The notes below the pieces were generated by a model. That model ran no database searches. It saw only the letters and a program-made list of their open reading frames with translations, and was not told where the DNA came from. Of a DNA stretch of 35,595 nucleotides, positions 3,343-32,788 are shown one piece after another (position 1 is the stretch's first letter; each line of letters begins with the position of its first letter). A program made the position numbers and the translations under genes. This DNA is from Clostridia bacterium (GTDB lineage: Bacteria > Bacillota > Clostridia > Oscillospirales > CAG-272): contig JAFQGP010000070.1 in assembly GCA_017415485.1 (NCBI GenBank), forward strand, positions 1 to 35,595. Reading direction: 5' to 3'.

Positions 3343-3371
3343 TTGACAAAGCTTTTGCCGTGTGCTATAAT
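3343..3371 (+). promoter_or_regulatory. Vegetative promoter of the leucine-type T-box operon
   Basis: Consensus TTGACA at 3343-3348, 17-bp spacer, consensus TATAAT at 3366-3371, with TGC directly before the -10. The predicted transcript start is near 3378, which begins the T-box leader. The -10 region (GTGCTATAAT) is shared with the second T-box promoter at 9902-9930. Confidence 0.9.
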
Positions 3372-3377
3372 ATCATA

Positions 3378-3650
3378 TCATAAACGCAGGGATGCGGAAT
3401 AGTACGCGAATATCTTCACTTTCAGAGAGTTGCCGGTCGGTGCAAGGCATGGTGGGGTTTTGGCGGAACTCACCGCGGAGCGGTTGCCGTGAAGATAACG
3501 ATAGCGGCAGACGGGTGCTCCCGTTACAGGGCAAGGATGTGTCAGCATCTGAAGTGCATTCCCCCGGGAATGAAAAAGAGTGGTACCGCGGAAACGGTTT
3601 TGGCGTTTTCGTCTCTTTGGATCAACAAAGGGACGGGAGCGTTTTTTTGT
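3378..3650 (+). ncRNA. T-box leader, probable tRNA-Leu sensor (CUC specifier)
   Basis: Tandem marks of a T-box riboswitch are visible: AGUA-type 5' specifier loop (3401-3404), AGAGAG bulge motif (3424-3429), a distal stem TGCC/GGCA (3431-3434, 3446-3449) with a GGUCGGUG-like loop, stem II TTGCCG/CGGCAG (3484-3489, 3505-3510), stem III ACGGG/CCCGT (3511-3524), and the T-box sequence TGGTACCGCG (3581-3590), followed by a terminator. The specifier is read as CUC at 3469-3471. It is followed by A, five bases and GAG, which is the spacing in the Bacillus subtilis glyQS leader (GGC, A, five bases, GAG). By the family rule, uncharged tRNA pairs with the specifier and the T-box bulge and prevents termination. 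Leucine shortage should therefore switch on the genes at 3703-9843. Confidence 0.9.
3603..3649 (+). terminator. T-box regulated terminator (Leu unit)
   Basis: A roughly 16-bp stem with several G-U pairs (CGTTTTCGTCTCTTTG against CAAAGGGACGGGAGCG) and loop GATCAA is followed by a run of seven T. The 5' arm follows the T-box sequence at 3581-3590, as needed for the competing antiterminator. Confidence 0.9.
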
Positions 3651-3702: not shown

Positions 3703-5091
3703 ATGAAAAAGATCAATATTTCCGACATCACACTTAAAAAGCTTTCCGCGAACCGCGCGGTATCCCTGCTGTTCCGCGAAAAATCCGCCATTGCAAATTG
3801 CGCCGATCGACTCGGTGCCGATGCCGTGGAGCTCCCCGCAGTCAAAAGCCTTCGGGAAGATTCCATTATATATAAGACCATCGCAAAAAACATACACAAC
3901 GCCGTGCTTGCAATCCCCGGCGGCTCGGAAGCGGACGAAGTCGAAGCGGCTTGGGAATGCATCAAGGATGCAAGATCCCCCCGCCTTCAGATAGAGCTTC
4001 CCGTTTCCACCATTCAAATGGAATATTCCTACCACGTCAAGCAGGCGAAGATGCTCGAAAAGATCGGTGAGCTTGTAAGCGCGGCGAAAGCACTTTGCTC
4101 CGACGTTGAATTCTCCGCAATCGACGCAACAAGAGCGGACGATGATTTCCTTATCGCAGCGGCACGCGAAGCAGAGGCGAAGGGCGCGGATATCATCACT
4201 CTTTGCGATTGCGCGGGTGCTTCGACCCCCGATCAGATCGCGGATATGGTCGCCCGTGTCAAGGCAGCCGTTTCGGTGCCCGTATACGTCGAGCTTTCCG
4301 ACCGCATCAATATGGCAGTTGCCTCCGCATTCGCCGCGATCAAGGCGGGCGCTGACGGACTCAAGTGCGCTATGGTCGGCAAGGATATTCTTCTGACGGG
4401 TGAAATTTCGGACGCCGTGAACACCTGCGGCGCGCAGATCGGCGCGGAGCTGGGGCTCAACAACACCATTATTCACGCAAGCATTGAGGATATGGTTGCA
4501 AGCATCAACCACGAGGCTTACGAGACTGAGGAAGCGGTGAGCGAGAAGAAAAAGATCCTTCTTGACTCCGATTCCTCGATGGCACAGGTATCCGCTGCCG
4601 CTTCTCTTCTCGGCTACGAGCTCTCGGATTCCGACGTCGGCAACGTATACAAGTCTCTCAAGCAGGTCTGCGACAAGAAGGGTGCCGTCGGCGCGAAGGA
4701 ATTTGAGGCTTTGATCGCAAGCTCGGCTATGCAGGCGCCCTCGACATATCATTTTGAGACATATACCACCACAAGCAGCAATCTTTCGAGCGCGATGACA
4801 CAGATCACCCTGAAATGCGACGGCGAGATCATTTGCGGCGTCAGCGCGGGCGACGGACCGATCGATTCCGCCTTCCGCGCCATCGAGCAGTGCATCGGTC
4901 ATCACTATGAGCTTGACGACTATCAGGTACAGTCGGTCACCGAAGGAAAGGAAGCTCTCGGCTCCGCGCTTGTAAGACTCCGCTCGGGCGGAAAGCTCTA
5001 TTCGGGCAACGGCACTTCAACCGATATCGTTGCGGCAAGCATCAGGGCGTTTATAAACGCGCTCAACAAGATAGTATTTGAGGAGGATTAA
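3703..5091 (+). CDS. Isopropylmalate-synthase-like protein with a degenerate catalytic site and an intact LeuA-type regulatory domain
   Basis: A 462-aa relative of 2-isopropylmalate synthase (HMGL-like TIM barrel, about residues 1-280, then a LeuA dimerisation/leucine-binding domain, about 350-460). The start at 3703 has GAAAGGGG upstream and lies 54 nt past the T-box terminator. The barrel lacks the family's catalytic residues. The usual D-T-T-L-R-D is D-I-T-L-K-K (Lys12, Lys13 in place of Arg and metal-binding Asp). The Glu of F-S-x-E-D-A is Ile140. The metal-binding H-x-H-N-D is E-L-S-D-R (197-201). The regulatory domain keeps G-D-G-P-I-D (383-388) and S-T-D-I-V-A-A-S (439-446). Normal condensation of acetyl-CoA with a 2-oxo acid is therefore unlikely. 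It may sense leucine, act as a scaffold or have a different chemistry. It is first gene of the Leu T-box operon, 3 bp before the next gene. Confidence 0.8.
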   Translation: MKKINISDITLKKLSANRAVSLLFREKSAIANCADRLGADAVELPAVKSLREDSIIYKTIAKNIHNAVLAIPGGSEADEVEAAWECIKDARSPRLQIELPVSTIQMEYSYHVKQAKMLEKIGELVSAAKALCSDVEFSAIDATRADDDFLIAAAREAEAKGADIITLCDCAGASTPDQIADMVARVKAAVSVPVYVELSDRINMAVASAFAAIKAGADGLKCAMVGKDILLTGEISDAVNTCGAQIGAELGLNNTIIHASIEDMVASINHEAYETEEAVSEKKKILLDSDSSMAQVSAAASLLGYELSDSDVGNVYKSLKQVCDKKGAVGAKEFEALIASSAMQAPSTYHFETYTTTSSNLSSAMTQITLKCDGEIICGVSAGDGPIDSAFRAIEQCIGHHYELDDYQVQSVTEGKEALGSALVRLRSGGKLYSGNGTSTDIVAASIRAFINALNKIVFEED

Positions 5092-5094
5092 AAT

Positions 5095-7554
5095 ATGAAG
5101 ATCGTATTTTCAACCAAGAACGTAAGCCGTGCTTCCTTTCTTGACACCTGCCGTTTTGCATTTGACTACGGCTTTGAGGGATTTGAAATATACGATGCCG
5201 TAAAGGAGCGTAACGGACATCACGACAGCATCCTGCGCCGCGACCGCACTGCGGATGCCAAAAGAAAGCTTGTCAACAGAAATCTCGCGATCTCGGCTCT
5301 CAGAATGCCCTTCCCCGTTGAAAGTGACGAGGTAAGCGCCGAGCTTGCAGCTAAATACGTTGATATGGCTGCCTTTGCCGGCATCGACAATGTTATAGTA
5401 TGTATCGAAAGCTTCACCTCCTTTGAAGCCCTTGACGAAAAGCTTGCAGGGGCGATCAAGCGCGCGGAAAACGCAGACGTCAATATCCTTTTTGAAACTA
5501 TCGGCTATCTTTCGAACACGGAAAACGTGCTCGGAATAATCAATCATTTTGCATCGGCGGCTGTCGGAGCATCCTGGAACGTTCGCGGAACTTATTTCGG
5601 CGCGGGCGAGACGGCAGAGGCGACGATCAAGACCCTCGGTGCTTACATCAAATACGTTCGTCTCGGCGACATGAAGGACGGCAGGACCGTTCTTATCGGC
5701 GAGGGAGACCTTGAGGTCGGCAAGTTGCTCGGCGCGCTTTCCTCGCTTAACTACGACGGCTTCGTTTGCGCCGCCTGGAACGAGGAGATTGACGATGCGG
5801 ACATCGTTCTGACTCATTTTACAAATTATATTTCCTCTCTTGCGCGCAACAAGAAGTCCTTTGACCGCACATATTACAATCGCGCAAAGACCGGAACCTT
5901 CGTCTGGAAAAAGTACGAGGTCATCGAGGCGACCTTCTCGGACGTTCTTGACACGATGGTGGAACGCTACCCCGACCAATACGCCTTCAAGTACCCCACG
6001 CTTGATTACACAAGGACCTACGAGCAATTCCGCCGCGACGTTGACGAATGCGCCGCCGCGCTCATCTCGCTCGGTGTAAAGGCGGGCGATCACGTTGCAG
6101 TCTGGGCGACAAACGTTCCGCAGTGGTTCATCACCTTCTGGGCAACCACCAAGATCGGTGCTGTTCTCGTCACCGTCAACACTGCTTACAAGATCCACGA
6201 GATTGAGTATCTGCTCAGACAGTCGGATACACACACCCTCGTTATGATCGAATACTGCAAGGATATAAACTACAAATCTATCATAGAGGAGCTCTGCCCC
6301 GAGCTCAAAAATCTCAAGCCGGGCACTCCCCTCTATTCAAAGAACCTCCCCTTCCTGCGCAACGTTGTAACCGTTGGTTTTAATATGGAAGGATGCCTTG
6401 ATTGGGAGCAGATGCTCGCACGTGCTTCTCTCGTTCCGCGCGAGGAGGTACGCAGACGCGCCTCCCTCGTCAAGCCCGACGACGTTTGCAATATGCAGTA
6501 CACCTCGGGTACGACAGGCTTCCCGAAGGGAGTTATGCTGACTCACCGCAACATAGTCAACAACGGCAAGACCATCGGCGACAGAATGGATCTTTCCACC
6601 GCCGACCGTATGATGATCCAGGTTCCGATGTTCCATTGCTTCGGAATGGTCCTTTCGATGACCTCGATGATGACTCACGGCGGAACTCTCTGCCCCATTC
6701 CCTACTTCTCGCCCAAATCCTCGCTCGCCTGCGTAAATGACGAGCATATCACCTGCTTCAACGGCGTTCCGACAATGTTCATCGCAATGTTCAATCACGC
6801 GGATTTTGCGAAAACGGACTTTTCTTATATGAGAACGGGCATTATGGCGGGCGCAAACTGCCCCGCGGATCTGATGCGCCGCGCGTCTGTCGAGATGAAT
6901 ATGCGCGAGATCATCTCCGTCTACGGTCAGACCGAGGCTTCGCCCGGATGCACCATGGGCGAGGTCAACGAGGACCTTGACCACCGCGTTGAGACTGTCG
7001 GAAGTGCCTTTCCCGGCATCGAATGCAAGATCATAGATCCCGAAACCGGCGAAGAACTCCCCGACGGGGAAAGCGGCGAATTCGTCGCCCGCGGCTTCAA
7101 TATTATGAAGGGCTACTACAAAATGCCCGAGGCTACCGCGCAGACCATCGATGCGGAGGGCTGGCTCCATTCGGGCGACATCTGCATGAGAACTCCCGAC
7201 GGCTATTATAAGGTAACGGGCAGACTCAAGGATATGATCATCCGCGGCGGCGAGAACCTTTACCCCCGCGAGATAGAGGAATTTTATCTCACAAACCCCA
7301 AGATCCGTGACGTTCAGGTCGTCGGCGTGCCCGACGAGACATATGGCGAGGAATGCTGCGCGTGGATCATTCTTCACAAGGGTGAAAGTGCAGACGAAGC
7401 CGAGATGCGCGCATACGGCAACGCCTCGATCGCAAAGCACAAGGTTCCGAGATACTTTATCTTTACCGATTCGTTCCCGATGAACGCGGCGGGCAAGATA
7501 CTCAAATACAAGATGCGCGAGGACTCCCTCGAGCTGCTCGGTCTGAAAAAGTGA
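5095..7554 (+). CDS. Fusion: sugar-phosphate-isomerase-like TIM barrel plus AMP-forming acyl-CoA ligase
   Basis: An 819-aa two-domain protein. Residues 1-250 resemble the xylose isomerase-like TIM barrel (AP endonuclease 2 family): G-F-E-G-F-E near 27-31, a conserved Glu in I-L-F-E-T (131-135), and G-E-G-D-L (202-206). The usual His of the V-H-x-K-D motif is Arg189 (V-R-L-G-D), so metal binding may be changed. Residues 270-819 are an acyl-adenylate/CoA ligase: T-S-G-T-T-G-F-P-K-G (470-479), Y-G-Q-T-E (610-614), S-G-D (693-695), G-R-L-K-D (709-713) and the catalytic Lys801 in A-G-K-I-L-K. The expected reaction is carboxylic acid + ATP + CoA to acyl-CoA + AMP + PPi. The acid is unknown; the leucine T-box suggests a leucine-linked acid such as isovalerate (inference). 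GAGGAGG lies 8 nt before the ATG, and the stop overlaps the next reading frame. Confidence 0.85.
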   Translation: MKIVFSTKNVSRASFLDTCRFAFDYGFEGFEIYDAVKERNGHHDSILRRDRTADAKRKLVNRNLAISALRMPFPVESDEVSAELAAKYVDMAAFAGIDNVIVCIESFTSFEALDEKLAGAIKRAENADVNILFETIGYLSNTENVLGIINHFASAAVGASWNVRGTYFGAGETAEATIKTLGAYIKYVRLGDMKDGRTVLIGEGDLEVGKLLGALSSLNYDGFVCAAWNEEIDDADIVLTHFTNYISSLARNKKSFDRTYYNRAKTGTFVWKKYEVIEATFSDVLDTMVERYPDQYAFKYPTLDYTRTYEQFRRDVDECAAALISLGVKAGDHVAVWATNVPQWFITFWATTKIGAVLVTVNTAYKIHEIEYLLRQSDTHTLVMIEYCKDINYKSIIEELCPELKNLKPGTPLYSKNLPFLRNVVTVGFNMEGCLDWEQMLARASLVPREEVRRRASLVKPDDVCNMQYTSGTTGFPKGVMLTHRNIVNNGKTIGDRMDLSTADRMMIQVPMFHCFGMVLSMTSMMTHGGTLCPIPYFSPKSSLACVNDEHITCFNGVPTMFIAMFNHADFAKTDFSYMRTGIMAGANCPADLMRRASVEMNMREIISVYGQTEASPGCTMGEVNEDLDHRVETVGSAFPGIECKIIDPETGEELPDGESGEFVARGFNIMKGYYKMPEATAQTIDAEGWLHSGDICMRTPDGYYKVTGRLKDMIIRGGENLYPREIEEFYLTNPKIRDVQVVGVPDETYGEECCAWIILHKGESADEAEMRAYGNASIAKHKVPRYFIFTDSFPMNAAGKILKYKMREDSLELLGLKK

Positions 7555-7562
7555 GAAGCATA

Positions 7563-8363
7563 ATGAAAAAATACAGAATAATCGACTCACATTGCCACAT
7601 CTATCCCGACAAGATCGCGCAAAAGGCATCGGATGCGACCGCAAATTTTTACGAGCTTCCGCCAAGCCTTGACGGCAGGATATCCACCCTGCTCGAGCAC
7701 GGCGAAAAAGCGGGGATCGACCATTTTATCGTGCAATCCGTCGCAACGACTCCAAAGCAGGTATCAAGCATCAACAGATTCATTGCGGCATCGGTTGCCG
7801 AAAGCGGCGGCAGATTCACGGGGCTCGGCACTCTCCACCCCGACAGCGAGGATATGGCGGCAGACGTTGAAGAAATCATCAGCCTCGGATTGAGGGGAGT
7901 AAAGCTCCACCCGGATATTCAGAAGGTCAAGCTTGACGACTACCGTATGCTTAAGATGTACGAGCTTTGCGAGGGCAGACTGCCCATCCTCATCCACACG
8001 GGCGATAAACGCTATGATCACTCAAACCCCAACCGTTTGCTGCCGATACTTGACATTTACAAGAATCTGACCGTCATCGGCGCACATTTCGGCGGATGGT
8101 CTATCTGGGAGGAGGCTTGGAAGGAGCTGGCGGGGCGCGAAAACTTCTACGTTGACTGCTCCTCATCGCTCTATGCCATCTCCCCGGAAACAGCAAAGGA
8201 GCTCATCCACGCTTACGGCTCCGACCGCGTCCTTTTCGGCACGGACTATCCTCTTTGGACGCCGGAGAGCGAGATCGAAAGATTCATGAAGCTTGATCTC
8301 ACCGAGAAAGAGCGCGAGGATATACTTTACAACAACACCGCCAAGCTGTTCGGTATAAACTGA
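7563..8363 (+). CDS. Amidohydrolase-2 family metal-dependent hydrolase
   Basis: A 266-aa TIM-barrel hydrolase or decarboxylase of the amidohydrolase-related family (relatives of ACMS decarboxylase and isoorotate decarboxylase). Visible metal and active-site elements are D-S-H-C-H (His10, His12), K-L-H-P, L-I-H-T-G-D, the A-H-F-G-G histidine, and F-G-T-D-Y-P with the catalytic Asp near the C-terminus. The ATG at 7563 is preferred. A GTG at 7551, overlapping the previous stop (GTGA), would add four residues and is possible through translational coupling. The reaction on this substrate cannot be inferred. It may remove a side product or decarboxylate an intermediate made by the neighbouring ligase. 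Confidence 0.85.
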   Translation: MKKYRIIDSHCHIYPDKIAQKASDATANFYELPPSLDGRISTLLEHGEKAGIDHFIVQSVATTPKQVSSINRFIAASVAESGGRFTGLGTLHPDSEDMAADVEEIISLGLRGVKLHPDIQKVKLDDYRMLKMYELCEGRLPILIHTGDKRYDHSNPNRLLPILDIYKNLTVIGAHFGGWSIWEEAWKELAGRENFYVDCSSSLYAISPETAKELIHAYGSDRVLFGTDYPLWTPESEIERFMKLDLTEKEREDILYNNTAKLFGIN

Positions 8364-8403: not shown

Positions 8404-9843
8404 ATGAAAAAGACTTACGTAACCTCTATGCCGAATCATATCGGTGCGTTCCTCAAAGCCAGCCGTTGCTTTTGCGAGCTCGGAATAAACATAACTCGCG
8501 TCAGCTATAACAAGGCAGTCGATTCACATAAGCTGTTTATCGACGCCGAAGGCACCGAGGAACAGTTGAAAAAAGCCGACATCGAACTTGAAAAGATCGG
8601 ATATCTGCAAGACAGCGTCAAGGGAACGAGCGTTGTGCTGATAGAATTCCGCCTGGCGGACGTTCCCGGAAGCGTTACCGATGTGCTCACACTCATCAAT
8701 GATTTCAATTTCAATATATCCTATATCAGCTCCCAGGAAAACGGCTCGGATTATCAATATTTCAAAATGGGGCTCTACGTTGAGGATACGCAAAAAATCG
8801 CCGAATTTTTAAAAGAAGCAGAAAAGCTGTGCAAGGTTCGGGTCATTGATTACAACAGCTCAAAAAAGGTCTATGACAACAGCATCTTTTACAGCACCTA
8901 CGTTATGGGCCTGACAAAAGCCACCGGGCTTTCGGATGACATCGGGCGCGAGCTCTTGGTTCACGTGAATCTTGCAATGCAAACACTCGACGAAAACGGT
9001 CTCTCGCCCTACCGCACTTTCGACAGCATCAGCAAATTTGCGGAATTGCTCGGCGCGGGCAAGGGCAGATCCTTCGAGCCGAGGATAAGTTCTCACAAAA
9101 TAACCGACAACACCGAGATAATCCTCATCGAACCGCCCTGCGGAAGCAATACTATGATAATCGCGAGCCGCGGCAAGTACCTTTTCGTTGACAGCGGATA
9201 TGCATGCTACAAAGATGAAATGCTCGAGCTGTTCCATAAGCTCATCCCCGATTTTGACAGTATTGAAAAAACGGTCCTCATCACCCATGCCGACGTCGAC
9301 CATTGCGGCCTTTTGCCCTTGTTCGACAAAATCATAGCAGGGCACAAAACCGCACGCTGTCTCGAAAACGAATTTCTCGGAAAGAACGGCTACCGCGATG
9401 AAAATCCTCTGCACCGCCCCTATATCAATATTTGCAAAATGTTGACCTCATATAAGGCAGTCGATCCGAATAAGATCGAGGCTATGTGGAATAATAACGA
9501 CGAGCTGACCGAACCGCTTACACAGATCGGATTTTTCGATTATGAGGAGCTCCATTTCGAGGTATACGAAGGCAAGGGCGGACATCTGCCGGGTGAGATC
9601 GTGCTGATCGATTACACTCATCACCTTGCTTTCACGGGCGATATCTATATCAATATGCGCGGAATGACCAAGGAGCAGGCGGAGTATAACCAATACGCCC
9701 CCATCCTTATGACTTCGGTGGACACGGATCCCAAGCTGTGTGCAGAGGAACGCAAGGCTATCCTCGGCCGACTCGGTGTCGGGCAGTGGCAGATCTTCGG
9801 TGCTCACGGATTCAAAAAGGACTACTCGGTCAATTTTCAGTAA
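8404..9843 (+). CDS. ACT-domain / metallo-beta-lactamase-fold fusion protein
   Basis: A 479-aa protein with two tandem ACT-like segments (about residues 1-70 and 75-150; the second contains L-A-D-V-P-G-S, the typical ACT ligand loop). A linker follows, then an MBL-fold hydrolase domain from about 228 to 479. MBL metal ligands are seen as T-H-A-D-V-D-H (294-300; the middle His of H-x-H-x-D-H is Asp), G-G-H-L-P-G (392-397), T-G-D (411-413) and G-A-H-G (466-469). ACT domains usually bind amino acids and control the enzyme they are attached to, so leucine or a relative may gate the hydrolase. A thioesterase-like role on acyl-CoA is one possibility, but this is inference. Last gene of the Leu T-box unit, 40 bp after the amidohydrolase; no terminator is seen before the next promoter. 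Confidence 0.8.
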   Translation: MKKTYVTSMPNHIGAFLKASRCFCELGINITRVSYNKAVDSHKLFIDAEGTEEQLKKADIELEKIGYLQDSVKGTSVVLIEFRLADVPGSVTDVLTLINDFNFNISYISSQENGSDYQYFKMGLYVEDTQKIAEFLKEAEKLCKVRVIDYNSSKKVYDNSIFYSTYVMGLTKATGLSDDIGRELLVHVNLAMQTLDENGLSPYRTFDSISKFAELLGAGKGRSFEPRISSHKITDNTEIILIEPPCGSNTMIIASRGKYLFVDSGYACYKDEMLELFHKLIPDFDSIEKTVLITHADVDHCGLLPLFDKIIAGHKTARCLENEFLGKNGYRDENPLHRPYINICKMLTSYKAVDPNKIEAMWNNNDELTEPLTQIGFFDYEELHFEVYEGKGGHLPGEIVLIDYTHHLAFTGDIYINMRGMTKEQAEYNQYAPILMTSVDTDPKLCAEERKAILGRLGVGQWQIFGAHGFKKDYSVNFQ

Positions 9844-9901: not shown

Positions 9902-9930
9902 TTGACAAACTCGTTTTTCTGTGCTATAAT
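9902..9930 (+). promoter_or_regulatory. Vegetative promoter of the isoleucine-type T-box unit
   Basis: TTGACA at 9902-9907, 17-bp spacer and TATAAT at 9925-9930 with TGC before the -10. The -35 start (TTGACAAA) and the -10 region (GTGCTATAAT) match the promoter at 3343-3371. Confidence 0.9.
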
Positions 9931-9936
9931 TTTAAA

Positions 9937-10217
9937 AAATTTGAATATCACAAAAAACGACTGCGATGAAGACGGTCGGTGCGCAAGGCTTGCAGAGAGT
10001 TGTCGGTAGGTGTAAGACAACAGCGGAACGCCCCAATGACTATCACTTCTGAGTCGAAGGACCGAACGGCGAAAGCCCAGTAGACTCCTTCCGTAATGCT
10101 GCGTAAAGGCAAAGGACTTGTCAGAGTCCGGAAAGTGACGGAATCTTTTCCGTAATTTGAGTGGTACCGCGGGTTAATAACTCGTCTCAAAGGTTTCTTT
10201 TGAGGCGAGTTTTTTGT
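9937..10217 (+). ncRNA. T-box leader, probable tRNA-Ile sensor (AUC specifier)
   Basis: Stem I base CGACT/AGTCG (9958-9962 with 10052-10056), AGAGAG motif (9994-9999), distal helix GTTGTC/GACAAC (9999-10004 with 10016-10021) around a GGUAGGUG-like loop, and the T-box sequence TGGTACCGCG (10162-10171). The specifier is read as AUC at 10042-10044, followed by A, five bases and GAG, the same spacing as in the leader at 3378. AUC indicates isoleucine. The one-base-shifted alternatives (UAU, UCA) fit the spacing less well. The leader should raise expression of the gene at 10262 when tRNA-Ile is uncharged. Confidence 0.88.
10179..10216 (+). terminator. T-box regulated terminator (Ile unit)
   Basis: A stem of about 12 bp (ACTCGTCTCAAA with TTTGAGGCGAGT, one wobble) is followed by TTTTTTG. 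It sits 7 nt past the T-box sequence and 45 nt before the start codon at 10262. Confidence 0.9.
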
Positions 10218-10261: not shown

Positions 10262-12562
10262 ATGGATTACAGTTTGAAAGAAGTTGCAGGCAGAATAAAG
10301 GACCTGCGCGAAGCAAAGGGATTCACACCGGCAGAGCTTGCAAAGCTTACCGGCGTATCGCTTGAGGACTATCTCGTTCTCGAAAAGGGTGAGACCGATT
10401 TCAGCTTCACCTTCATTTACAAATGCGCAAAAGCCTGCGGAGTCGAGGTCGTTGACCTTCTTGAGGGACGAAGCTCGACCCTCACCTCTTTCGCCATCAC
10501 CCGCCGCGGCGAGGGTCTTAAGATCCTCAAGCAGCACGGAGTTGAATATAACAACCTCGCGCCCAAATTCAAAGAAAAGCTCGCAGAGCCCTTCCTTGTC
10601 AAGTTCCCCTATCTTCCCGAGGAACAGAATGCTCCCATAAAGCTCAACTCGCATAACGGACAGGAATTTGACGTTATCGTCAAGGGCTCCTTAAAAGTTC
10701 AGGTCGGAAACCACGTTGATATCCTGAACGAGGGTGACTCGATATTCTATAATTCCCTCATCCCCCACGGTATGATCGCAGTCAGCGAGGGAGGATGCGA
10801 ATTCCACGCCGTAGTCCTCAACCCGCAGGACGGTCAGGTCAGCGAGGAATACCCCGAGGTTCCCTTCACCCACAAGGAGGCGGTCGAAAAGGAAGAAAGC
10901 ACCGCTACGGTTGCCGACAACTTCATCACTTCCACCTATGACGAAGAAGGCGTCTTCAACGGGATCTCCTTCAAAAACGACGATAAATTCAATTTCGCCT
11001 TCGACTGCGTTGACGAGATCGCAAAAAAGAGCCCCGACAAGCTTGCAATGCTTTGGGTAGCAAACGACAAGAGCGAGCGCAGATTCACCTTTAGCGATAT
11101 GAAGAAATATTCGGCAAAGACAGCCAATTATTTCGAATCGCTCGGCATCAAGAAGGGCGACACCGTAATGCTCGTGCTCAAGCGTCACTATCAGTTCTGG
11201 TTCTGTATGCTTGCGCTTCACAAGATCGGCGCGATCGCGATCCCTGCGACCAATCAGCTCGTCGAGCACGATTTCGAATACAGATACAAGGCTGCGGGAG
11301 TCAAGGCTATCGTCTGCACCGCGGACGGCGAGGTTTCGACCGAAGCCGAAAAGGCTGCAGCGGGCTTCCCCGGAATGCTCAAGATCCTGGTTGGAGGTAA
11401 AAAAGAGGGTTGGAACGACTTCAATGTTGAAATGGAGCGCTTCAGCACCCACTATTACCGCACCGAAAGCACTCCCTGCGGCAGCGACCCGATGCTTATG
11501 CTCTTCACCTCGGGCACCACGGGATATCCCCGCATAGCAACGCACTCCTACAAATACGCACTCGGTCATTATCCCACGGCAAAGCATTGGCACAACGTCG
11601 ATCCGAACGGTCTGCACTTCACGATCTCGGATACCGGCTGGGGCAAGGCTCTTTGGGGCAAGCTTTACGGTCAGTGGCTCTGCGAGGCGGCTACCTTCAC
11701 CTATGACTTCGACAGATTCCACTCCGAGGACATTCTGCCGATGTTCGCAAAATACAATATCACCACCTTCTGCGCACCGCCCACTATGTACCGCTTCTTC
11801 ATAAAGGAGGATCTCTCGAAATACGACCTTTCCTCGATCAAGTACGCGACAACGGCAGGCGAGGCGCTCAACCCCGAGGTCTTCAACCGCTTCAAGGAAG
11901 CAACCGGACTGACCATCATGGAAGGCTTCGGACAGACCGAGACCACCCTTTCGATCGCAAACTTTGTCGGCTCGACTCCCAAGATCGGATCTATGGGCAA
12001 GCCCAGCCCGCTTTACGACGTTGTTGTTCTTGATCCCGACGGAAACGAGTGCAACACGGGTGACACGGGTGAGATCTGCATCCGCACCAAGGATCACGTT
12101 CCCTGCGGACTCTTCATCGGCTACTATCTCGATGAAGAAAAGACTCACGAGGCTTGGCACGACGGCTACTATCACACCGGCGACCAGGCAACGATGGACG
12201 AGGACGGCTACCTCTGGTACGTCGGTCGTATCGACGACGTCATCAAGTCCTCCGGCTACCGCATCGGCCCGTTCGAGATCGAAAGCGTCATCATGGAGCT
12301 TCCCTACGTTCTTGAATGCGCGGTCACTCCCGTTCCCGACGAGGTACGCGGTCAGATCGTCAAGGCAACGATCGTCCTTGTAAAGGGCAAGGAAGGCAAC
12401 GACGCGCTCAAGAAGGAGATCCAGGATTACGTCAAGACCCACACCGCTCCCTATAAGTACCCCAGAATCGTCGAATTCGTAGACGAGCTTCCCAAGACCA
12501 TCAGCGGCAAGGTAAGACGTGTCGAGATCCGCAAAAATGACCTTGCAAAACTGAATAAATAA
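10262..12562 (+). CDS. HTH-cupin-acyl-CoA ligase (ACSM/butyryl-CoA synthetase-like)
   Basis: A 766-aa three-part protein. Residues 5-70 are an XRE-type helix-turn-helix, about 100-190 a cupin ligand-binding barrel (F-D-V-I-V-K-G and I-P-H-G-M), and 220-766 an AMP-forming acyl-CoA ligase. Ligase motifs are T-S-G-T-T-G (416-421), G-F-G-Q-T-E (555-560), H-T-G-D (638-641), G-R-I-D-D-V-I-K-S-S-G-Y-R (655-667) and the acyl-adenylation Lys750 in S-G-K. The ligase is closest in type to the medium-chain/butyrate family that activates short and branched acids. With an isoleucine-type T-box in front, 2-methylbutyrate is a reasonable substrate guess (inference). The HTH-cupin part resembles stand-alone regulators of the SutR/PuuR type, so the enzyme may also bind DNA. 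Start: ATG after GAAGGAG. It is followed by a strong terminator. Confidence 0.87.
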   Translation: MDYSLKEVAGRIKDLREAKGFTPAELAKLTGVSLEDYLVLEKGETDFSFTFIYKCAKACGVEVVDLLEGRSSTLTSFAITRRGEGLKILKQHGVEYNNLAPKFKEKLAEPFLVKFPYLPEEQNAPIKLNSHNGQEFDVIVKGSLKVQVGNHVDILNEGDSIFYNSLIPHGMIAVSEGGCEFHAVVLNPQDGQVSEEYPEVPFTHKEAVEKEESTATVADNFITSTYDEEGVFNGISFKNDDKFNFAFDCVDEIAKKSPDKLAMLWVANDKSERRFTFSDMKKYSAKTANYFESLGIKKGDTVMLVLKRHYQFWFCMLALHKIGAIAIPATNQLVEHDFEYRYKAAGVKAIVCTADGEVSTEAEKAAAGFPGMLKILVGGKKEGWNDFNVEMERFSTHYYRTESTPCGSDPMLMLFTSGTTGYPRIATHSYKYALGHYPTAKHWHNVDPNGLHFTISDTGWGKALWGKLYGQWLCEAATFTYDFDRFHSEDILPMFAKYNITTFCAPPTMYRFFIKEDLSKYDLSSIKYATTAGEALNPEVFNRFKEATGLTIMEGFGQTETTLSIANFVGSTPKIGSMGKPSPLYDVVVLDPDGNECNTGDTGEICIRTKDHVPCGLFIGYYLDEEKTHEAWHDGYYHTGDQATMDEDGYLWYVGRIDDVIKSSGYRIGPFEIESVIMELPYVLECAVTPVPDEVRGQIVKATIVLVKGKEGNDALKKEIQDYVKTHTAPYKYPRIVEFVDELPKTISGKVRRVEIRKNDLAKLNK

Positions 12563-26951: not shown

Positions 26952-26991
26952 CGCATCTTTCTGTCCACTGTCCACTAACCACTGTTCACTT
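26952..26991 (-). repeat. Right arm of a perfect 40-bp inverted repeat
   Basis: Reverse complement of 26747-26786 over all 40 bp. Its outer end supplies the last Lys codon and the TGA stop of the minus-strand hydrogenase gene (26986-26988). With the left arm it bounds a 245-bp element with an AT-rich 165-bp centre. Confidence 0.95.
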
Positions 26992-28401
26992 GATTTCCGC
27001 ATCGGAAATCTTCCTGTCCGCCGCTTCCTTGCCGTATTTATCGACCTCGGTCTTGTTCTTCTCGCCGTGGGTCAGGCAACCGGCGCCGCCGATGCAGCCG
27101 CCGATGCACGCCATTCCCTCGATGAAATTGCCTTCAAGGAGATTCTTGTTCTTCTTGAGAAGTGCCACGCGGCAAGCCTCGATTCCGTCGCAGATGACGG
27201 GCTTGAGATCGAATTCGATATTCTGCTCCGCCATTGCAGCCGCAACAGCCTCGGAAAGACCGCCAGAGCGGGCGAAGATGCGTCCGTAATAGGATGCGTC
27301 GTCGAGTCCCGATTCCTCGAGCAGAGTGATGTCGATGTCGCGGCTGTCGAAGAGAGCCTGAAGCTCCTCGAAGGTGATGACTGAGTCAACGTAGGGCTTG
27401 ACGTCCTCGCGCTGAGCCTCGCCCTTCTTTGCCGTGCAGGGGCCGACGAAGATGACCTTTGCATCCGCATCGCGCTCCTTGATGACCTTCGCGAGAAGTG
27501 CCATCGGCGAGGGATTATGCGAGATGAACTCCTTCAGATTCGGGAAAGCGGAGTTTATGTAGGTCACGAAAGCGGGGCAGCAGGAGCTTGTGAGGAATCC
27601 TTTTTCCGCAAGCTCGCGCGACTCGGCAAGCGCGACAAGATCGGCGCCGAGGGCGGCTTCGATGACCTTGTCAAATCCGAGCTTGCGCAAACCCGTGATG
27701 ACCTGACCGTTCTTCGCATAGGTGAACTGACTTGCGATCGAGGGGGCAACCATGGCATAGACCTTGCCCGAGCCCTCGCGCTTGCTCTTTTTGATGATCT
27801 CGATGACGTCAACGATGAAGGACTTATCCGAGATCGCACCGAAGGGGCACTGATAAACGCAGGCGCCGCAACGGATGCACTTGTTGTTGTCGATAAGAGC
27901 CGCCTTCTGCTCGTTCATCGAAATTGCCTTGACCTTGCAGGCATTCTGGCAGGGACGGGTACGCTTTACGATAGCGGTGTAGGGGCAGACCTTCGCGCAG
28001 GCGCCGCACTCGACGCACTTTGATTTGTCGATGTGCGCGACGTGGTTTTCGTCGAAGGACAGCGCGCCCTTCTTACAAACGTCCTCGCAACGGTGGGCAA
28101 GACAGCCTCGGCAGGCGTTTGTGACCTCATATCCGCTGACGGGACACTCATCGCAAGCGATCTCGATGACCTCGATAACGTTGGGATTCTGTCTGTCGCC
28201 GCCGATGGCAAGCTTGACACGCTCGCCGAGGATCGCGCGCTCCTTGTATACACAGCAACGCATCGTCGGCTCGTTTCCGGGAACGATGGTCTTGGGAATG
28301 TCGATGCAGTTCTCAAGAAGCGTGTCGTTCCAGGCAAGGCGAGCCACCTCGCGGAGTACCTTATATTTCAGATGTTGAACTTTTGTATCAAATTTACGCA
28401 T
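26986..28401 (-). CDS. [FeFe] hydrogenase, group B (monomeric, ferredoxin-type clusters)
   Basis: A 471-aa hydrogenase. N-terminal Cys motifs hold [4Fe-4S] clusters (C-V-E-C-G-A-C-A-K-V-C-P and C-I-R-C-G-A-C-V-Y-Q-C-P), and the H-cluster domain follows. Its three signatures are T-S-S-C-C-P-A-F-V, F-V-G-P-C-T-A-K-K-G-E and E-G-M-A-C-I-G-G-C-I-G-G-A-G. The T-S-C-C-P-A-F variant, instead of T-S-C-C-P-G-W, is typical of group B. It is expected to exchange electrons between ferredoxin and protons, in either direction. It lies downstream of hydA with a 53-bp gap containing a strong hairpin (28420-28446). It is last of the redox cluster, and its stop lies in the right inverted-repeat arm. Confidence 0.9.
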   Translation of the reverse strand: MRKFDTKVQHLKYKVLREVARLAWNDTLLENCIDIPKTIVPGNEPTMRCCVYKERAILGERVKLAIGGDRQNPNVIEVIEIACDECPVSGYEVTNACRGCLAHRCEDVCKKGALSFDENHVAHIDKSKCVECGACAKVCPYTAIVKRTRPCQNACKVKAISMNEQKAALIDNNKCIRCGACVYQCPFGAISDKSFIVDVIEIIKKSKREGSGKVYAMVAPSIASQFTYAKNGQVITGLRKLGFDKVIEAALGADLVALAESRELAEKGFLTSSCCPAFVTYINSAFPNLKEFISHNPSPMALLAKVIKERDADAKVIFVGPCTAKKGEAQREDVKPYVDSVITFEELQALFDSRDIDITLLEESGLDDASYYGRIFARSGGLSEAVAAAMAEQNIEFDLKPVICDGIEACRVALLKKNKNLLEGNFIEGMACIGGCIGGAGCLTHGEKNKTEVDKYGKEAADRKISDAEIK

Positions 28402-28419
28402 TTTTACACCTTATATTTT

Positions 28420-28446
28420 GAATGCGGCAGCAAAGCTACCGCATTC
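28420..28446 (-). other. Intercistronic hairpin between hydA and the group-B hydrogenase
   Basis: A 12-bp stem (GAATGCGGCAGC with its near-complement, one wobble) with an AAA loop on the plus strand, TTT in the mRNA. No U-run follows on the minus strand, so it is better read as an mRNA stability or processing element than as a terminator. Confidence 0.55.
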
Positions 28447-28454
28447 ATTATGAA

Positions 28455-30149
28455 TTAGTCTTCGTGTTTTGCGGTATAGTGAACGTGGAGAAGCTCGTGA
28501 GCGCGGTCCTTGATGATCTTCTTGTAAACAGAGTTTACAATGGGATTTTCCTGCGATCGACGAATGCTGAGCATTCTGTCTGCTTCATAAAGTCCCTTGC
28601 TTCTTGCTTCCTTGGCGTTGCTGAAGTAGGGCTGACCGCCGCCGTTTACACAGCCGCCGGGACAAGCCATGATCTCGATGAAATCGAAATGCTCGCCTGC
28701 GGATGCGCGGAGAAGAACTCTCTCGGCGTTGCCAAGTCCGCTTACAACTGCGATGTGGAGCTGACGGTCACCGTAGGGCAGGTAGAATTCCTTGATGCCT
28801 TCCATACCGCGCTGACCTGCGTTTGCCGCCTCGAGGAGACCCGCGCGCGACTTGTTTTCGGAAACGCGGCGAAGAACTGCCTCGGTTACGCCTCCGGTAA
28901 CGCCGAAGATAACGCCCGCACCAGAAACGGTGCCGAAGGGCATATCAACTGCCTCGGGCTCGAGCTCGTCGAATACAAGACCCGACTCCTTGATCATACG
29001 GATGAGCTCCTGGGTGGTGATGACCGCATCAACGTCGGGCTCGCCGTTCTTGGTGAACTCGGGGCGCGAAGCCTCGAACTTCTTTGCGGTACAGGGCATA
29101 ATTGCAACGTGGAACATCTTCTGCTCGGCATCCATGTTCTGATCCTTGACAAGAGATCCCATCATCTGCATAGGAGAACGGCAGGTGGAGATGTTCTCGA
29201 GGAATTCGGGATGCTTCTTCTCGGCATACTGGATCCAACCGGGACAGCAGGAGGTGATGAGCGGGAGCTTGCCGCCGTTTTCGAGGCGGTCGATGAACTC
29301 CGCGGTCTCCTCCATGACCGTGAGGTCGGCGGAGAGAGTGGTGTCATAGATCTCGTCAAAGCCCATACGGCGGAGCGCGGCAACGATCTTGCCCATTACG
29401 TTCTCACCTTCACGGCACTTGAGCTCCTTGCCGATCGCAACACGGACTGCGGGCGCGATCTGCACGCTTGTTCTTACGTTCGGGTCGGAGATAGCGTCCC
29501 AAACGCACTGGATGTTATTCTTGACTACGATAGCACCCGTGGGGCAAACTGCCGCACACTGACCGCATCCGACGCAGGGGGATTCTGCGAGGGGCTTGCC
29601 GAAGGCGGTGGAGATGACCATCTTCGAGCCGCGGTGTGCGAAATCGATCGCGCCGACGTTCTGGATCTCGTTACAAACTCTTACGCAGTCGCCGCAGAGG
29701 ATGCACTTGCCCGCGTCGCGGACGATGCAAACAGACGAGGTATCGTCGTTCTTTGTGGACTTTGCGCGGTTGGGGAAGCGAACGCCCTCAATGTTGAAGC
29801 GCATTGCAAGCTCCTGGAGCTTACAGTTCTGGTTGTTCTCGCAAACCGTGCAATCGCGGCAATGGTTTGCAAGAAGAAGCTCGAGGATGTTCTTGCGGTA
29901 ACGGCGAAGACGCTCGGTGTTTGTCTTGATCTCCATTCCCGCGCGGGGAGGAGTCGAGCAAGCTGCCTCGATGCCGCCCCACTTGTTCTCGACCATACAC
30001 ATACGGCACGCGCCGTAGATCGAAAGATCGGAGTGGTAGCAGAATGTGGGCATCTTGATGCCGATCTTCTGGCAAAGCTCAAGAATGTTCTTCTCACCGT
30101 TTATTTCAACCGGAATACCGTCTATTGTCATATACTGTTTTTCGCTCAT
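28455..30149 (-). CDS. hydA: [FeFe] hydrogenase catalytic subunit HydA (bifurcating, group A)
   Basis: A 564-aa catalytic subunit of a trimeric hydrogenase. From the N-terminus: a [2Fe-2S] domain (C-x11-C-R-M-C with Y-G-A-C-R-M-C), a His/Cys-ligated [4Fe-4S] (N-H-C-R-D-C-T-V-C), two ferredoxin-type [4Fe-4S] sites (C-I-L-C-G-D-C and C-V-G-C-G-Q-C-A-A-V-C-P), then the H-cluster domain with T-S-C-C-P-G-W-I, M-P-C-T-A-K-K-F-E and M-A-C-P-G-G-C-V-N-G-G-G-Q-P. In the HydABC complex it couples oxidation of ferredoxin and NADH to H2 formation, or the reverse. AAGGAGG lies in the end of hydB, 3 bp gap. Confidence 0.95.
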   Translation of the reverse strand: MSEKQYMTIDGIPVEINGEKNILELCQKIGIKMPTFCYHSDLSIYGACRMCMVENKWGGIEAACSTPPRAGMEIKTNTERLRRYRKNILELLLANHCRDCTVCENNQNCKLQELAMRFNIEGVRFPNRAKSTKNDDTSSVCIVRDAGKCILCGDCVRVCNEIQNVGAIDFAHRGSKMVISTAFGKPLAESPCVGCGQCAAVCPTGAIVVKNNIQCVWDAISDPNVRTSVQIAPAVRVAIGKELKCREGENVMGKIVAALRRMGFDEIYDTTLSADLTVMEETAEFIDRLENGGKLPLITSCCPGWIQYAEKKHPEFLENISTCRSPMQMMGSLVKDQNMDAEQKMFHVAIMPCTAKKFEASRPEFTKNGEPDVDAVITTQELIRMIKESGLVFDELEPEAVDMPFGTVSGAGVIFGVTGGVTEAVLRRVSENKSRAGLLEAANAGQRGMEGIKEFYLPYGDRQLHIAVVSGLGNAERVLLRASAGEHFDFIEIMACPGGCVNGGGQPYFSNAKEARSKGLYEADRMLSIRRSQENPIVNSVYKKIIKDRAHELLHVHYTAKHED

Positions 30150-30152
30150 GAT

Positions 30153-32039
30153 TTAGCCCTCCTTAATAGCCCCAAACGGGCAAGTCGAGATACAGCTTCC
30201 GCAGCGGATGCACTTCTCAAGATCGATCGAGAAGGGTTCCTTGACCTTGCCGCTGATAGCCTCAACGGGACACTGTCTTGCGCACTTGGAGCATCCCTTG
30301 CAAAGCTCGGGGTCGATATAGATCCTCTTGAGCTTCTGGCAAGCGCCTGCGGGACATCTCTTCTCGTAGATGTGCGCCTCATATTCCTCGCGGAAGTTCT
30401 TGATGGTACTTACAACGGGATTGGGAGCCGACTTGCCGAGACCGCAAAGAGCGGTTGCGGAAATGGTCTCCGCGAGCTCGAGAAGGAGCTCGATGTCGCC
30501 GTCGCGGCCCTCGCCTGCAACGATCCTCTCAAGGATCTCAAGCATACGCTTGGTACCCTCACGGCAGGGAACGCACTTACCGCAGGACTCGTTCTGAGTG
30601 AAATTCATAAAGAAGCGTGCAACCTCGACCATACAGGTGCTCTCGTCCATAACAACGAGACCGCCCGAGCCGACCATTGCGCCGACCTTCTTGAGGGTGT
30701 CGAAATCGAGAGGCATATCAAGGTGTTCCTTGGTAAGGCAAGCACCCGAAGGGCCGCCGATCTGAACTGCCTTGAATTCTGCGCCGTTCTTCATACCGCC
30801 GCCGATGTCAAAGATGACCTCGCGGAGGGTGGTTCCCATGGGAACCTCGATAAGGCCGGTATTCTCGATCGCACCGGTGAGCGAGAAGGTCTTACAACCC
30901 GAGCTGTTGTCTGTGCCGATAGCGCGGAACCAATCCGAGCCCATCTCGATGATCTTCGGCACGTTTGCATATGTTTCTACGTTGTTGAGAACGGTGGGCT
31001 TGTCGAAAAGGCCGTGCTCAACGGTTCTGGGGGGCTTAACTCTCGGGAATCCGCGGTTACCCTCGATGGATGCGGTCAGAGCCGAGCCCTCGCCGCATAC
31101 GAACGCACCCGCGCCGCGGTTGATGTGCATATGGAAGCTGAAATCGGTGCCCATAATATTGTCACCGAGCAGACCTCTCTCCTCGAGAGTCTTGATGGCG
31201 AGCTTAAGACGGCTGACGCTCATCGGGTACTCGGCGCGCACGTAGATATAACCGTTTTCCGCGCTTACGGCATAAGCCGCGATCATCATACCCTCGATAA
31301 GCTTGTAGGGGTCGCCCTCCATTACAGAACCGTCCATAAATGCGCCGGGGTCGCCCTCGTCGCCGTTACAAACAACGTAACGGACCTTCTCCTTCTGCGA
31401 AGCTACCTGCTTCCACTTTCTGCCTGCGGGGAATCCGCCTCCTCCGCGTCCGCGGAGACCAGATTTATCGATCTCCTCGATAACTTCCTCGCGGCTCATT
31501 TCGAACATAGCCTTCTCAAGTGCCTTGAAGCCTCCCGAGGCAAGATATTCGTCGAGCGATTCGCTGTCAAAGCGTCCGCAATTTTCAAGAACCATGCGGG
31601 TCTGCTTTGCGATAAAGGGAATATCGGAAGGGCTGCGGAATGCCTCCCCCGCTTTATGATAAAGGAGTTCTTCGATGACCTCGTCACCGAGAACGGATCT
31701 TTCAAAGATAGCTTTGCAGTCGCTCTGCTGGACCTTTACGTACTGAATGACACGTTCGCCCTTCTGAATGCGGACGAGCGGGCCAAGCTCACAGCAGCCC
31801 TGGCAGCCTGTCTTCTTTACGCCGACAAGCTCCTCGTGCTCTTTTGCATCGTGGGGAGCAAACTCAAGCGTAACGCCGGGGGTCTCTTTTACGAGCTCTG
31901 CAAATATCTCGTATATCTTGTTCGAGCCGGTAGCGATACAGCCCGTGCCCGAGCATACGAGGATGCGGCAATCATATGAAGCAATGGCATCAAGAGCCGC
32001 GGTGCGATTGAGAGCAAGCTCATTCTGTGTTTTGATCAT
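30153..32039 (-). CDS. hydB: NuoF-like flavoprotein subunit HydB of the bifurcating hydrogenase
   Basis: A 628-aa FMN- and NADH-binding subunit. A thioredoxin-like [2Fe-2S] domain (Cys29/Cys34 and C-Q-G-C-C near 75) leads into the NuoF core with L-R-G-R-G-G-G-G-F-P-A-G (FMN/NADH loop), a [4Fe-4S] at E-S-C-G-K-C-V-P-C-R-E-G, and two C-terminal ferredoxin clusters (C-K-G-C-S-K-C and C-I-R-C-G-S-C). This layout, longer than respiratory NuoF, is that of HydB/HndC proteins. It overlaps the hydC stop by one base (TGATG). Confidence 0.95.
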   Translation of the reverse strand: MIKTQNELALNRTAALDAIASYDCRILVCSGTGCIATGSNKIYEIFAELVKETPGVTLEFAPHDAKEHEELVGVKKTGCQGCCELGPLVRIQKGERVIQYVKVQQSDCKAIFERSVLGDEVIEELLYHKAGEAFRSPSDIPFIAKQTRMVLENCGRFDSESLDEYLASGGFKALEKAMFEMSREEVIEEIDKSGLRGRGGGGFPAGRKWKQVASQKEKVRYVVCNGDEGDPGAFMDGSVMEGDPYKLIEGMMIAAYAVSAENGYIYVRAEYPMSVSRLKLAIKTLEERGLLGDNIMGTDFSFHMHINRGAGAFVCGEGSALTASIEGNRGFPRVKPPRTVEHGLFDKPTVLNNVETYANVPKIIEMGSDWFRAIGTDNSSGCKTFSLTGAIENTGLIEVPMGTTLREVIFDIGGGMKNGAEFKAVQIGGPSGACLTKEHLDMPLDFDTLKKVGAMVGSGGLVVMDESTCMVEVARFFMNFTQNESCGKCVPCREGTKRMLEILERIVAGEGRDGDIELLLELAETISATALCGLGKSAPNPVVSTIKNFREEYEAHIYEKRCPAGACQKLKRIYIDPELCKGCSKCARQCPVEAISGKVKEPFSIDLEKCIRCGSCISTCPFGAIKEG

Positions 32040-32515
32040 CAGCCTCTACCTCTCAATTCTTCAAGTACTGCCAGAACCTTTTCGGGGGTCATGGCTGCGT
32101 ATACCTGCTCGTTGACCATCATAGTCGGTGCAAGACCGCAAGCGCCGAGGCAGGAAACAGTTTCAACGGTGAACATAAGGTCATCTGTGGTGTGCTTTTC
32201 CTTGGAAAGTCCAAGCTCGTTCCAAAGAGCCTCAAGAACGGGTGTGGAGTGACGAACGTGGCACGCGGTGCCGTCGCAGACCTTGATGACGTACTTGCCC
32301 TTCGGCTCGAAGGAAAAGTTCTCATAGAAGGTCGCAATGCTGTAGATCTTCGCCTCGCTCATTCCGAGCTTTGCGGAAAGGTGGGGGACGATCTCCTTGG
32401 GGAGATAACGGTAGTGCTCCTGAATGTCCTGCAGGATAGCGATAATAGCCTGTGGGCTATTGTTGTTGGCGGCCAGGATCTGATCCACCACGGTGAAATC
32501 GAAAGAACTGTTCAT
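32039..32515 (-). CDS. hydC: NuoE-like [2Fe-2S] subunit HydC
   Basis: A 158-aa thioredoxin-fold subunit. Four cysteines bind a [2Fe-2S]: C-D-G-T-A-C and C-L-G-A-C-G-L-A-P. An N-terminal helical domain (to about 75) precedes them. It passes electrons between HydB and HydA. The start at 32515 has AAAGGAG 8 nt upstream. The frame stays open for 57 codons upstream, but that segment is leader. The stop TGA overlaps the hydB ATG. Confidence 0.95.
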   Translation of the reverse strand: MNSSFDFTVVDQILAANNNSPQAIIAILQDIQEHYRYLPKEIVPHLSAKLGMSEAKIYSIATFYENFSFEPKGKYVIKVCDGTACHVRHSTPVLEALWNELGLSKEKHTTDDLMFTVETVSCLGACGLAPTMMVNEQVYAAMTPEKVLAVLEELRGRG

Positions 32516-32528
32516 TTTGTTCTCCTTT

Positions 32529-32620
32529 ATATAGGCGCAAAGTTTCTGCGCAAAATTTTTCGGGTTAAAATGCCCTATATGCATTCTTCCGTGACTGAAT
32601 ATAAACAGCCACGGAAGAAT
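32529..32620 (-). promoter_or_regulatory. Structured leader before hydC
   Basis: Within 100 bp before the hydC start there are three stems: ATATAGG/CCTATAT (32529-32535 with 32574-32580) enclosing GCGCA/TGCGC (32535-32539 with 32547-32551), and an 11-bp hairpin ATTCTTCCGTG/CACGGAAGAAT (32583-32593 with 32610-32620). The first stem ends just before the ribosome binding site. No clear promoter is seen, so the leader may be reached by read-through from nfnB. Confidence 0.45.
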
Positions 32621-32621
32621 C

Positions 32622-32788
32622 AAAGGCAATACCGCACAATTCTGATGGTGCAATTGCGCCGTCAGAAATTTCGTCAGGGTGTACAAAATTCCGCAGGCAA
32701 TAGATAACCTATTGACAAGGGATTTTGTACAGCTTGACGGAATTTATGCAAGCAAGTGTGCCGTCACGAATTTGCGCGGTGTTGCCTT
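32622..32788. mobile_element. MITE-like palindromic element between nfnB and hydC
   Basis: A 167-bp imperfect palindrome. The left end (AAAGGCAATACCGCAC) matches the reverse complement of the right end (TAAGGCAACACCGCGC). The two arms, each about 80-85 bp, stay about 70 percent complementary to the centre, with a shared TGTACAAAAT and a central CAATAG/CTATTG hairpin. There is no coding sequence. The right end is 6 bp from the nfnB stop. This fits a non-autonomous insertion or an imperfect palindromic repeat. I cannot define a target-site duplication. Confidence 0.75.

Follow-up and report, generated by a model that had tools for sequence, protein, structure and literature searches.

The question raised by this locus is what a protein made of two ACT domains and a metallo-beta-lactamase (MBL) domain does among genes for acyl-CoA ligases and amino acid metabolism, and which amino acid it would answer to. 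A first-pass annotation of the window (the whole 35,595-nucleotide stretch of DNA that was analyzed) had placed the gene at 8404..9843, here called ACT-MBL, in a leucine operon and proposed a leucine-gated hydrolase, perhaps a thioesterase. The gene and its product have the following features.

8404..9843, + strand: ACT-ACT-linker-MBL protein, 479 aa, ATG start (open reading frame, Pfam, fold model and codon-position pattern)
8404..8613, + strand: ACT repeat 1, about residues 1-70 (fold model; PF01842 in the homologues L172 and L137)
8629..8856, + strand: ACT repeat 2, residues 76-151 (PF01842, E 6.8e-8)
9061..9831, + strand: MBL-fold domain, residues 220-476 (PF00753; fold matches with Z 15-17)
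9286..9303, + strand: motif II, H295-A-D297-V-D299-H300, HxDxDH replacing HxHxDH (conserved in orthologue alignments)

The encoded protein is ordered as ACT1, ACT2, a helical linker (residues 160-218) and MBL domain. When the architecture was searched with Pfam, both families were over their cut-offs in the window protein, PF01842 at residues 79-143 (E 6.8e-8, 32.6 bits versus a cut-off of 27) and Lactamase_B PF00753 at residues 245-414 (E 6.4e-7, 29.9 bits versus a cut-off of 22.7). No Pfam match to repeat 1 (about residues 1-70) of the window protein was obtained; in two homologues PF01842 was over its cut-off with repeat 1 as the best stretch (L172, residues 8-65, 30.2 bits; L137, residues 8-57, 29.9 bits). 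An AlphaFold model, for which 42 aligned orthologues served as input (mean pLDDT 78.6 for the full protein and 76.0 for the ACT pair alone), contained two beta-alpha-beta-beta-alpha-beta ACT units, the helical linker and the MBL domain, and the tandem ACT-MBL architecture that had been read from the sequence was thereby confirmed. Compared with solved structures, the MBL part gave Z scores of 15-17 (top 16.9) with the alpha-beta-beta-alpha MBL fold present, the matches including the Burkholderia MBLs 5i0p and 5u8o, TTHA1429 (2zo4), a flavodiiron protein (1vme, Z 16.5), BcII and PqsE (3dh8, Z 15.8). A canonical zinc beta-lactamase was rejected as an identity for the window protein: no resistance family claims it, and the BcII and Burkholderia matches are to the fold only.

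Differences between this reading frame and those of relatives fell mostly at third codon positions (69/41/271 by codon position in L030). Since it is conserved with mostly third-position change and with residue D297 of motif II kept, the frame is not a chance one. The window protein was over no NCBIfam cut-off and matched no NCBIfam family at E up to 0.001, and while the ACT fold is present, the protein falls into no characterized MBL family that acts on a different substrate. A literature search for ACT domain, metallo-beta-lactamase and T-box together found nothing, and no ACT-MBL fusion appeared in titles or abstracts among the matches listed. ACT-MBL is a real, conserved and uncharacterized enzyme family, a new combination made of known domains.

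Motif II of the MBL domain lies within T-H-A-D-V-D-H-C-G (residues 294-302, with the His295 codon at 9286). The replacement of its second His by Asp, already noticed in the first reading, was found in every sequence compared: D297 was kept in 91 of 91 close orthologues, and the MBL hallmark HxHxDH was absent, HxDxDH standing in its place in these 91 as well as in all 21 rows of a more divergent alignment. The 21 rows represent 20 distinct genes (one gene appears as both L013 and L132) and reach 22% BLAST identity over most of the protein (L177). Residues D263, H295, D297, D299, H300, H394, D413 and H468 were invariant in 21/21 rows, the motif I Asp and the ligands of motifs III, IV and V (D263, H394, D413 and H468) thus all being present. 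Because the ligands are invariant across the divergent alignment, a complete dinuclear site in which Asp replaces the second His is a family trait; the predicted site is complete, with one fixed replacement. A degenerate metal site was ruled out, since every ligand is invariant.

The earlier suggestion that this motif alters metal use has a precedent in ComEC, in which motif II also carries Asp for one His and which, according to the report on that protein (PMC8579336), has Mn2+ and not Zn2+ as the metal that it binds and uses. A survey of the superfamily (PMC7785958) describes the Fe sites of MBL oxidoreductases as more acidic than Zn sites, and HxDxDH itself occurs in the MBL literature in a quorum-quenching lactonase variant (PMC6146095). 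Since D297 replaces the second motif II His, Mn or Fe is probably used rather than Zn. A fixed HxDxDH site would extend knowledge of metal use in the MBL superfamily.

In structure comparisons of the model, both repeats of the ACT pair matched Synechocystis aspartate kinase (Z 14.6) and the regulatory domain of E. coli threonine deaminase with isoleucine (Z 14.4 and 12.8), the better of the latter matches (9d2s, 149 residues, 3.6 A) being a tie with aspartate kinase. As modelled, the ACT pair has a fold like that of the domain by which threonine deaminase (IlvA) binds isoleucine; common to both are the tandem ACT arrangement and a fold match over both repeats. The ACT pair differs from that domain (PF00585) in falling below the Pfam cut-off and in being fused to an MBL domain rather than a PLP enzyme, and isoleucine binding is putative. 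Thr_dehydrat_C (PF00585) was matched below its cut-off in 16 of 42 close members at E up to 0.5 (best E 1e-4) and in 4 of 10 wider members (best 26.2 bits versus a cut-off of 27), and the cut-off was reached by no member tested (42 close, ten wider); ACT_AHAS_ss was matched in 42/42 close members at E up to 0.5. Alignment of the ACT pair with E. coli IlvA by hhalign was weak (probability 13%, the ACT pair alignment having an effective depth of about 1.5), and when solved structures were searched with a profile at E up to 1, PheH, IlvN, a GTP pyrophosphokinase and others were listed, with IlvA absent. As reported for threonine deaminase (PMC3901761), ACT pairs of this type usually serve end-product inhibition. 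A further likeness is offered by AAPatA, the ACT-GNAT amino-acid-sensing acetyltransferases (PMC6434083), in which the ACT domain controls the enzyme fused to it; these differ in enzyme and in phylum and are not known to have a T-box link. We are fairly confident that the MBL domain is gated by an amino acid through the ACT pair, and the ligand would probably be a branched-chain amino acid (BCAA).

The genes and leaders around ACT-MBL bear on which BCAA this may be.

3343..3371, + strand: promoter-like TTGACA-17-TATAAT, 12/12, of the unit containing the ACT-MBL gene (promoter scan)
3380..3619, + strand: T-box leader, specifier CUC (Leu) (RF00230, 129.2 bits, cut-off 93; specifier from Rfam alignment)
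3602..3643, + strand: terminator-like hairpin of the first T-box (scan)
3703..5091, + strand: pseudo-LeuA, a LeuA-like gene with a LeuA_dimer domain and with catalytic motifs lost (Pfam; alignment)
5095..7554, + strand: TIM barrel (AP_endonuc_2) fused to acyl-CoA ligase (Pfam, NCBIfam)
7551..8363, + strand: amidohydrolase (PF04909) (Pfam)
9902..9930, + strand: promoter-like TTGACA-17-TATAAT, 12/12, of the next unit (promoter scan)
9954..10192, + strand: T-box leader, specifier AUC (Ile) (RF00230, 93.9 bits; specifier from Rfam alignment)
10262..12562, + strand: fusion of XRE-HTH, cupin and MbcS-like acyl-CoA synthetase, the commonest partner of ACT-MBL (Pfam, NCBIfam)

Both promoter-like sites lie just 5' of T-box leaders, and both leaders end in a terminator-like hairpin. 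On the + strand between 3200 and 10300, promoter-like sites were found at 3343 and 9902 alone, and because no further + strand promoter-like site occurs before 9902, the simplest reading makes ACT-MBL the final gene of the first (Leu T-box) unit. The placement in a leucine operon therefore holds insofar as a promoter at 3343 and a Leu T-box at 3380-3619 head the unit; it does not hold insofar as the LeuA-like gene is no normal LeuA. The product of this gene still has the dimer domain that binds leucine (PF08502, E 4.4e-31), and in it the catalytic T-L-R-D-G-E-Q of isopropylmalate synthase has become T-L-K-K-L-S-A and the metal-binding H-C-H-D-D has become E-L-S-D-R. All 11 aligned sequences have TLKKL as the first motif and a second motif with neither His, and pseudo-LeuA may be an inactive enzyme that now senses leucine. 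In the next gene of the unit, 5095-7554, the TIM barrel half is xylose-isomerase-like.

When leaders in related loci and the window were located by motif scan and read by eye, the specifier was CUC in 9 of 9 readable leaders of LeuA-like genes (10 in all) and AUC in 25 of 25 readable leaders of XRE-cupin-MbcS genes (26 in all). The motif scan also gave nine T-box-like sites with ACT-MBL as the next recognized gene, of which eight read AUC and one, in L028, was not clearly readable; in L028 and L081 the leader is separated from ACT-MBL by a MaoC-like gene. The RF00230 cut-off was passed by the leaders 5' of ACT-MBL in L072, L077 and L080, and also by a leader in L029; motif-scan sites 5' of ACT-MBL in L053, L068 and L078 were not over the Rfam cut-off. 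Frequently an orthologue comes after a branched-chain-type acyl-CoA synthetase under an Ile T-box, or directly after a T-box. In the window ACT-MBL adjoins the Ile T-box unit, and its place in the Leu unit may therefore be a local arrangement. Because the orthologue leaders read AUC and the ACT pair resembles the threonine deaminase domain, isoleucine is our best guess for the ligand and likelier than leucine, BCAA in general being the safer description. The proposal of an amino-acid-gated hydrolase stands as a good hypothesis, whereas for its leucine ligand the same two observations favor isoleucine. A T-box at C86:5645-5854 of the same genome lies 5' of an ORF that by eye is valyl-tRNA-synthetase-like (L200 1410-4064).

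Conservation of the neighboring genes was assessed in the best 80 of 239 genome_contigs stretches encoding a relative, a gene being counted as near when it was on the same strand and ended within 3 kb upstream, or started up to about 3 kb downstream, of the ACT-MBL gene. In these 80 loci, XRE-cupin-MbcS was near ACT-MBL in 28, a MaoC-like gene in 15, TIM-FadD in 7, pseudo-LeuA in 4, PaaK in 3, the amidohydrolase in 2 and a tandem-ACT gene in 1. At least one of the synthetase, TIM-FadD, PaaK and MaoC was near in 42/80, and none of the four was in 38/80, partly through contig ends. Pfam supports the MaoC, ACT_8 and AMP-binding names for three representatives. The arrangement of XRE, cupin and MbcS-like synthetase in one polypeptide was seen also in many related genomes. 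In a quick tree, many rows of which are close kin, the synthetase lay upstream in 22 and downstream in 8 tree-labelled rows; because both arrangements occur, each with about three changes, linkage to the synthetase appears to have been kept through rearrangement. Members of the synthetase clade (at least 80% identity) were found in 14/34 genomes with ACT-MBL compared with 2/34 without it (Fisher p 0.0012, kinship ignored). The linked genes were near at 0 of 10 loci of distant homologues (36-47% identity, L132-L141), whose neighborhoods had no theme in common, and the link to acyl-CoA ligases may therefore hold for the gut clade alone. In L051 and L150 a phenylacetate-CoA-ligase-like gene, a tandem-ACT gene (ACT_8) and the ACT-ACT-MBL gene are consecutive on a single strand.

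For BCAA synthesis, many rumen bacteria depend on a supply of branched short-chain acids (isoacids). The genome to which the window belongs gave no ketol-acid reductoisomerase (IlvC) over cut-off, one match reaching 19.9 bits, no IlvD over cut-off and no catalytic LeuA, the sole LeuA_dimer gene being the pseudo-LeuA of the window; as the assembly is 86.9% complete, missing BCAA genes may be unassembled. A full IorA was present (708.6 bits), with an IorB-like gene adjoining by eye. True IlvC (KARI) was found in 4/22 genomes with a close orthologue compared with 17/34 without ACT-MBL (p 0.024, kinship ignored), and when genomes with any ACT-MBL were taken (11/34 versus 17/34) the difference was not significant (p 0.22). 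Isoleucine from 2-methylbutyrate is presented as a proposed, probable route in the rumen methanogen Methanobrevibacter ruminantium (PMC2812497), and BCAA formation from branched acids is discussed for mixed rumen cultures (PMC7356843). The gene inventory fits, without proving, a supply of BCAAs from branched acids via acyl-CoA and ferredoxin-dependent carboxylation.

We tentatively favor a reading in which ACT-MBL would be a BCAA-responsive, likely isoleucine-responsive, metallohydrolase of a T-box isoacid-to-BCAA salvage regulon, acting probably on an acyl thioester. Uncharged Leu or Ile tRNA would switch on the T-box-controlled regulon of this gut Clostridium, which is poor in BCAA pathway genes; ligases of the FadD/MbcS type would convert branched short-chain acids to acyl-CoA, and a ferredoxin-dependent step of the IorAB type would carry the acyl-CoA to the 2-oxo acid, from which the amino acid would then be made. 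The tandem ACT module would sense a BCAA, most likely isoleucine, and set the activity of the MBL domain, which would hydrolyze an acyl thioester or a related acyl intermediate; such hydrolysis when the amino acid is plentiful would adjust ligase flux and CoA. A drain induced by starvation would be an odd design unless the ACT gate holds it off.

Taken on its own, the assignment of an acyl thioester or similar compound as the MBL substrate is a cautious one, suggested by recurring neighbors which, by family, handle acyl-CoA. Glyoxalase II and PqsE-type hydrolases share with ACT-MBL the MBL fold (PqsE 3dh8, Z 15.8) and every residue of motifs I and III-V; ACT-MBL differs in carrying HxDxDH and not HxHxDH, in its ACT module and in having no glutathione-binding C-terminal domain. 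PqsE is known for thioester chemistry. The same chemistry is known for glyoxalase II according to the superfamily survey (PMC7785958). A putative thioesterase activity of ACT-MBL is plausible. We would regard as speculative the fuller version in which an isoleucine-gated Mn/Fe acyl thioesterase polices branched acyl-CoA in isoacid-dependent rumen bacteria under T-box control, beside a dead LeuA maybe sensing leucine, and represents an undescribed allosteric MBL class. Regulation of the isoacid-to-BCAA route is, to our knowledge, little described, and ACT-MBL would tie that route to two sensors, the T-box RNA and the ACT pair. It is a defined enzyme open to test and, if the favored reading is true, an MBL hydrolase with allosteric gating and a fixed HxDxDH site.

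The alternative which survives best is a biosynthetic MBL enzyme, one that would perform or protect a step of salvage and be inhibited by the end product through its ACT pair, as with threonine deaminase and aspartate kinase. Induction by a T-box on starvation suits an enzyme of this kind, although no hydrolytic step is known in the route from acid through acyl-CoA to oxo acid. The end-product inhibition which such ACT pairs usually give (threonine deaminase, PMC3901761) also speaks for it; the adjoining amidohydrolase and TIM barrel, without assigned reactions here, do not, and we consider it unlikely.

It is improbable that ACT-MBL is instead a non-hydrolytic sensor or redox protein, that is, an ACT-coupled di-iron MBL like the flavodiiron proteins or the ODP oxygen sensor. 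In flavodiiron proteins the second His is replaced by an acidic residue, and ACT-MBL shares this with the flavodiiron/ODP group along with the MBL fold. The acidic motif II, the more acidic Fe sites of MBL oxidoreductases (PMC7785958), the presence of flavodiiron 1vme among the best fold matches (Z 16.5) and ODP (PF19583) matches below cut-off in several members are all consistent with a di-iron protein. Nevertheless, PF19583 reached 17.8 bits versus a cut-off of 27.2 in the window protein and 24.2 bits in the best of ten wider members, neither a flavodoxin nor another electron-transfer domain was found in the window protein by Pfam, and the neighbors are acyl-CoA ligases and amino acid genes. 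Similarly doubtful is a leucine-gated thioesterase exactly as first proposed; the position of ACT-MBL within the Leu T-box unit of the window supports it, while the AUC specifiers of direct orthologue leaders (8/9) and the adjoining Ile T-box unit oppose it. An amino-acid-controlled nuclease or phosphodiesterase with ComEC- or RNase J-like chemistry, for example one trimming RNA in starvation, is very unlikely: ComEC, a Mn-dependent nuclease (PMC8579336), shows a similar replacement in motif II together with an MBL fold in its C-terminal nuclease domain, and weak RNase J profile matches occurred in 28/42 members, but the RNase J match of the window protein (15.5 versus a 400-bit cut-off) covers residues 247-307, the metal motif region alone, Pfam detected neither a beta-CASP domain nor one that binds nucleic acid in the window protein and wider members, and ACT-MBL differs from ComEC in having His394 where ComEC has Asn for the motif III His and in being without a channel domain or a DNA link.

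ACT-MBL is single copy in its own genome. Matches at E up to 0.001 were obtained in 17 of 98 genomes of relatives (own included, those in G070 and G088 being short or weak) and in 33 of 393 genomes of the class, several of them weak near E 1e-4; 46 of 398 genomes of the phylum matched the MBL part, the first nine (window included) being ACT-MBL and the others weak. By record titles, the best 80 of 239 genome_contigs relatives come mostly from ruminant gut samples. Phage or plasmid cargo was rejected, with no match among 50,697 phage records and, in plasmids, one Methanosphaera plasmid alone (two record versions). An anti-phage protein was likewise rejected: PADLOC gave LmuA alone, at E 0.0054 over 48 metal-motif residues, and an Avs1a match was below cut-off. 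The archaeal homologue (L198 9992-11413), carried by the rumen plasmid pNP174 of Methanosphaera sp. ISO3-F5, is 37.5% identical and annotated merely as an MBL-fold metallo-hydrolase, and an aldo/keto reductase gene adjoins it on the other strand. Elsewhere in the window, positions 26986-32686 of the minus strand carry what is by eye an NADH-linked [FeFe] hydrogenase-like set, with NuoE/NuoF-like and iron-sulfur-rich hydrogenase-like ORFs.
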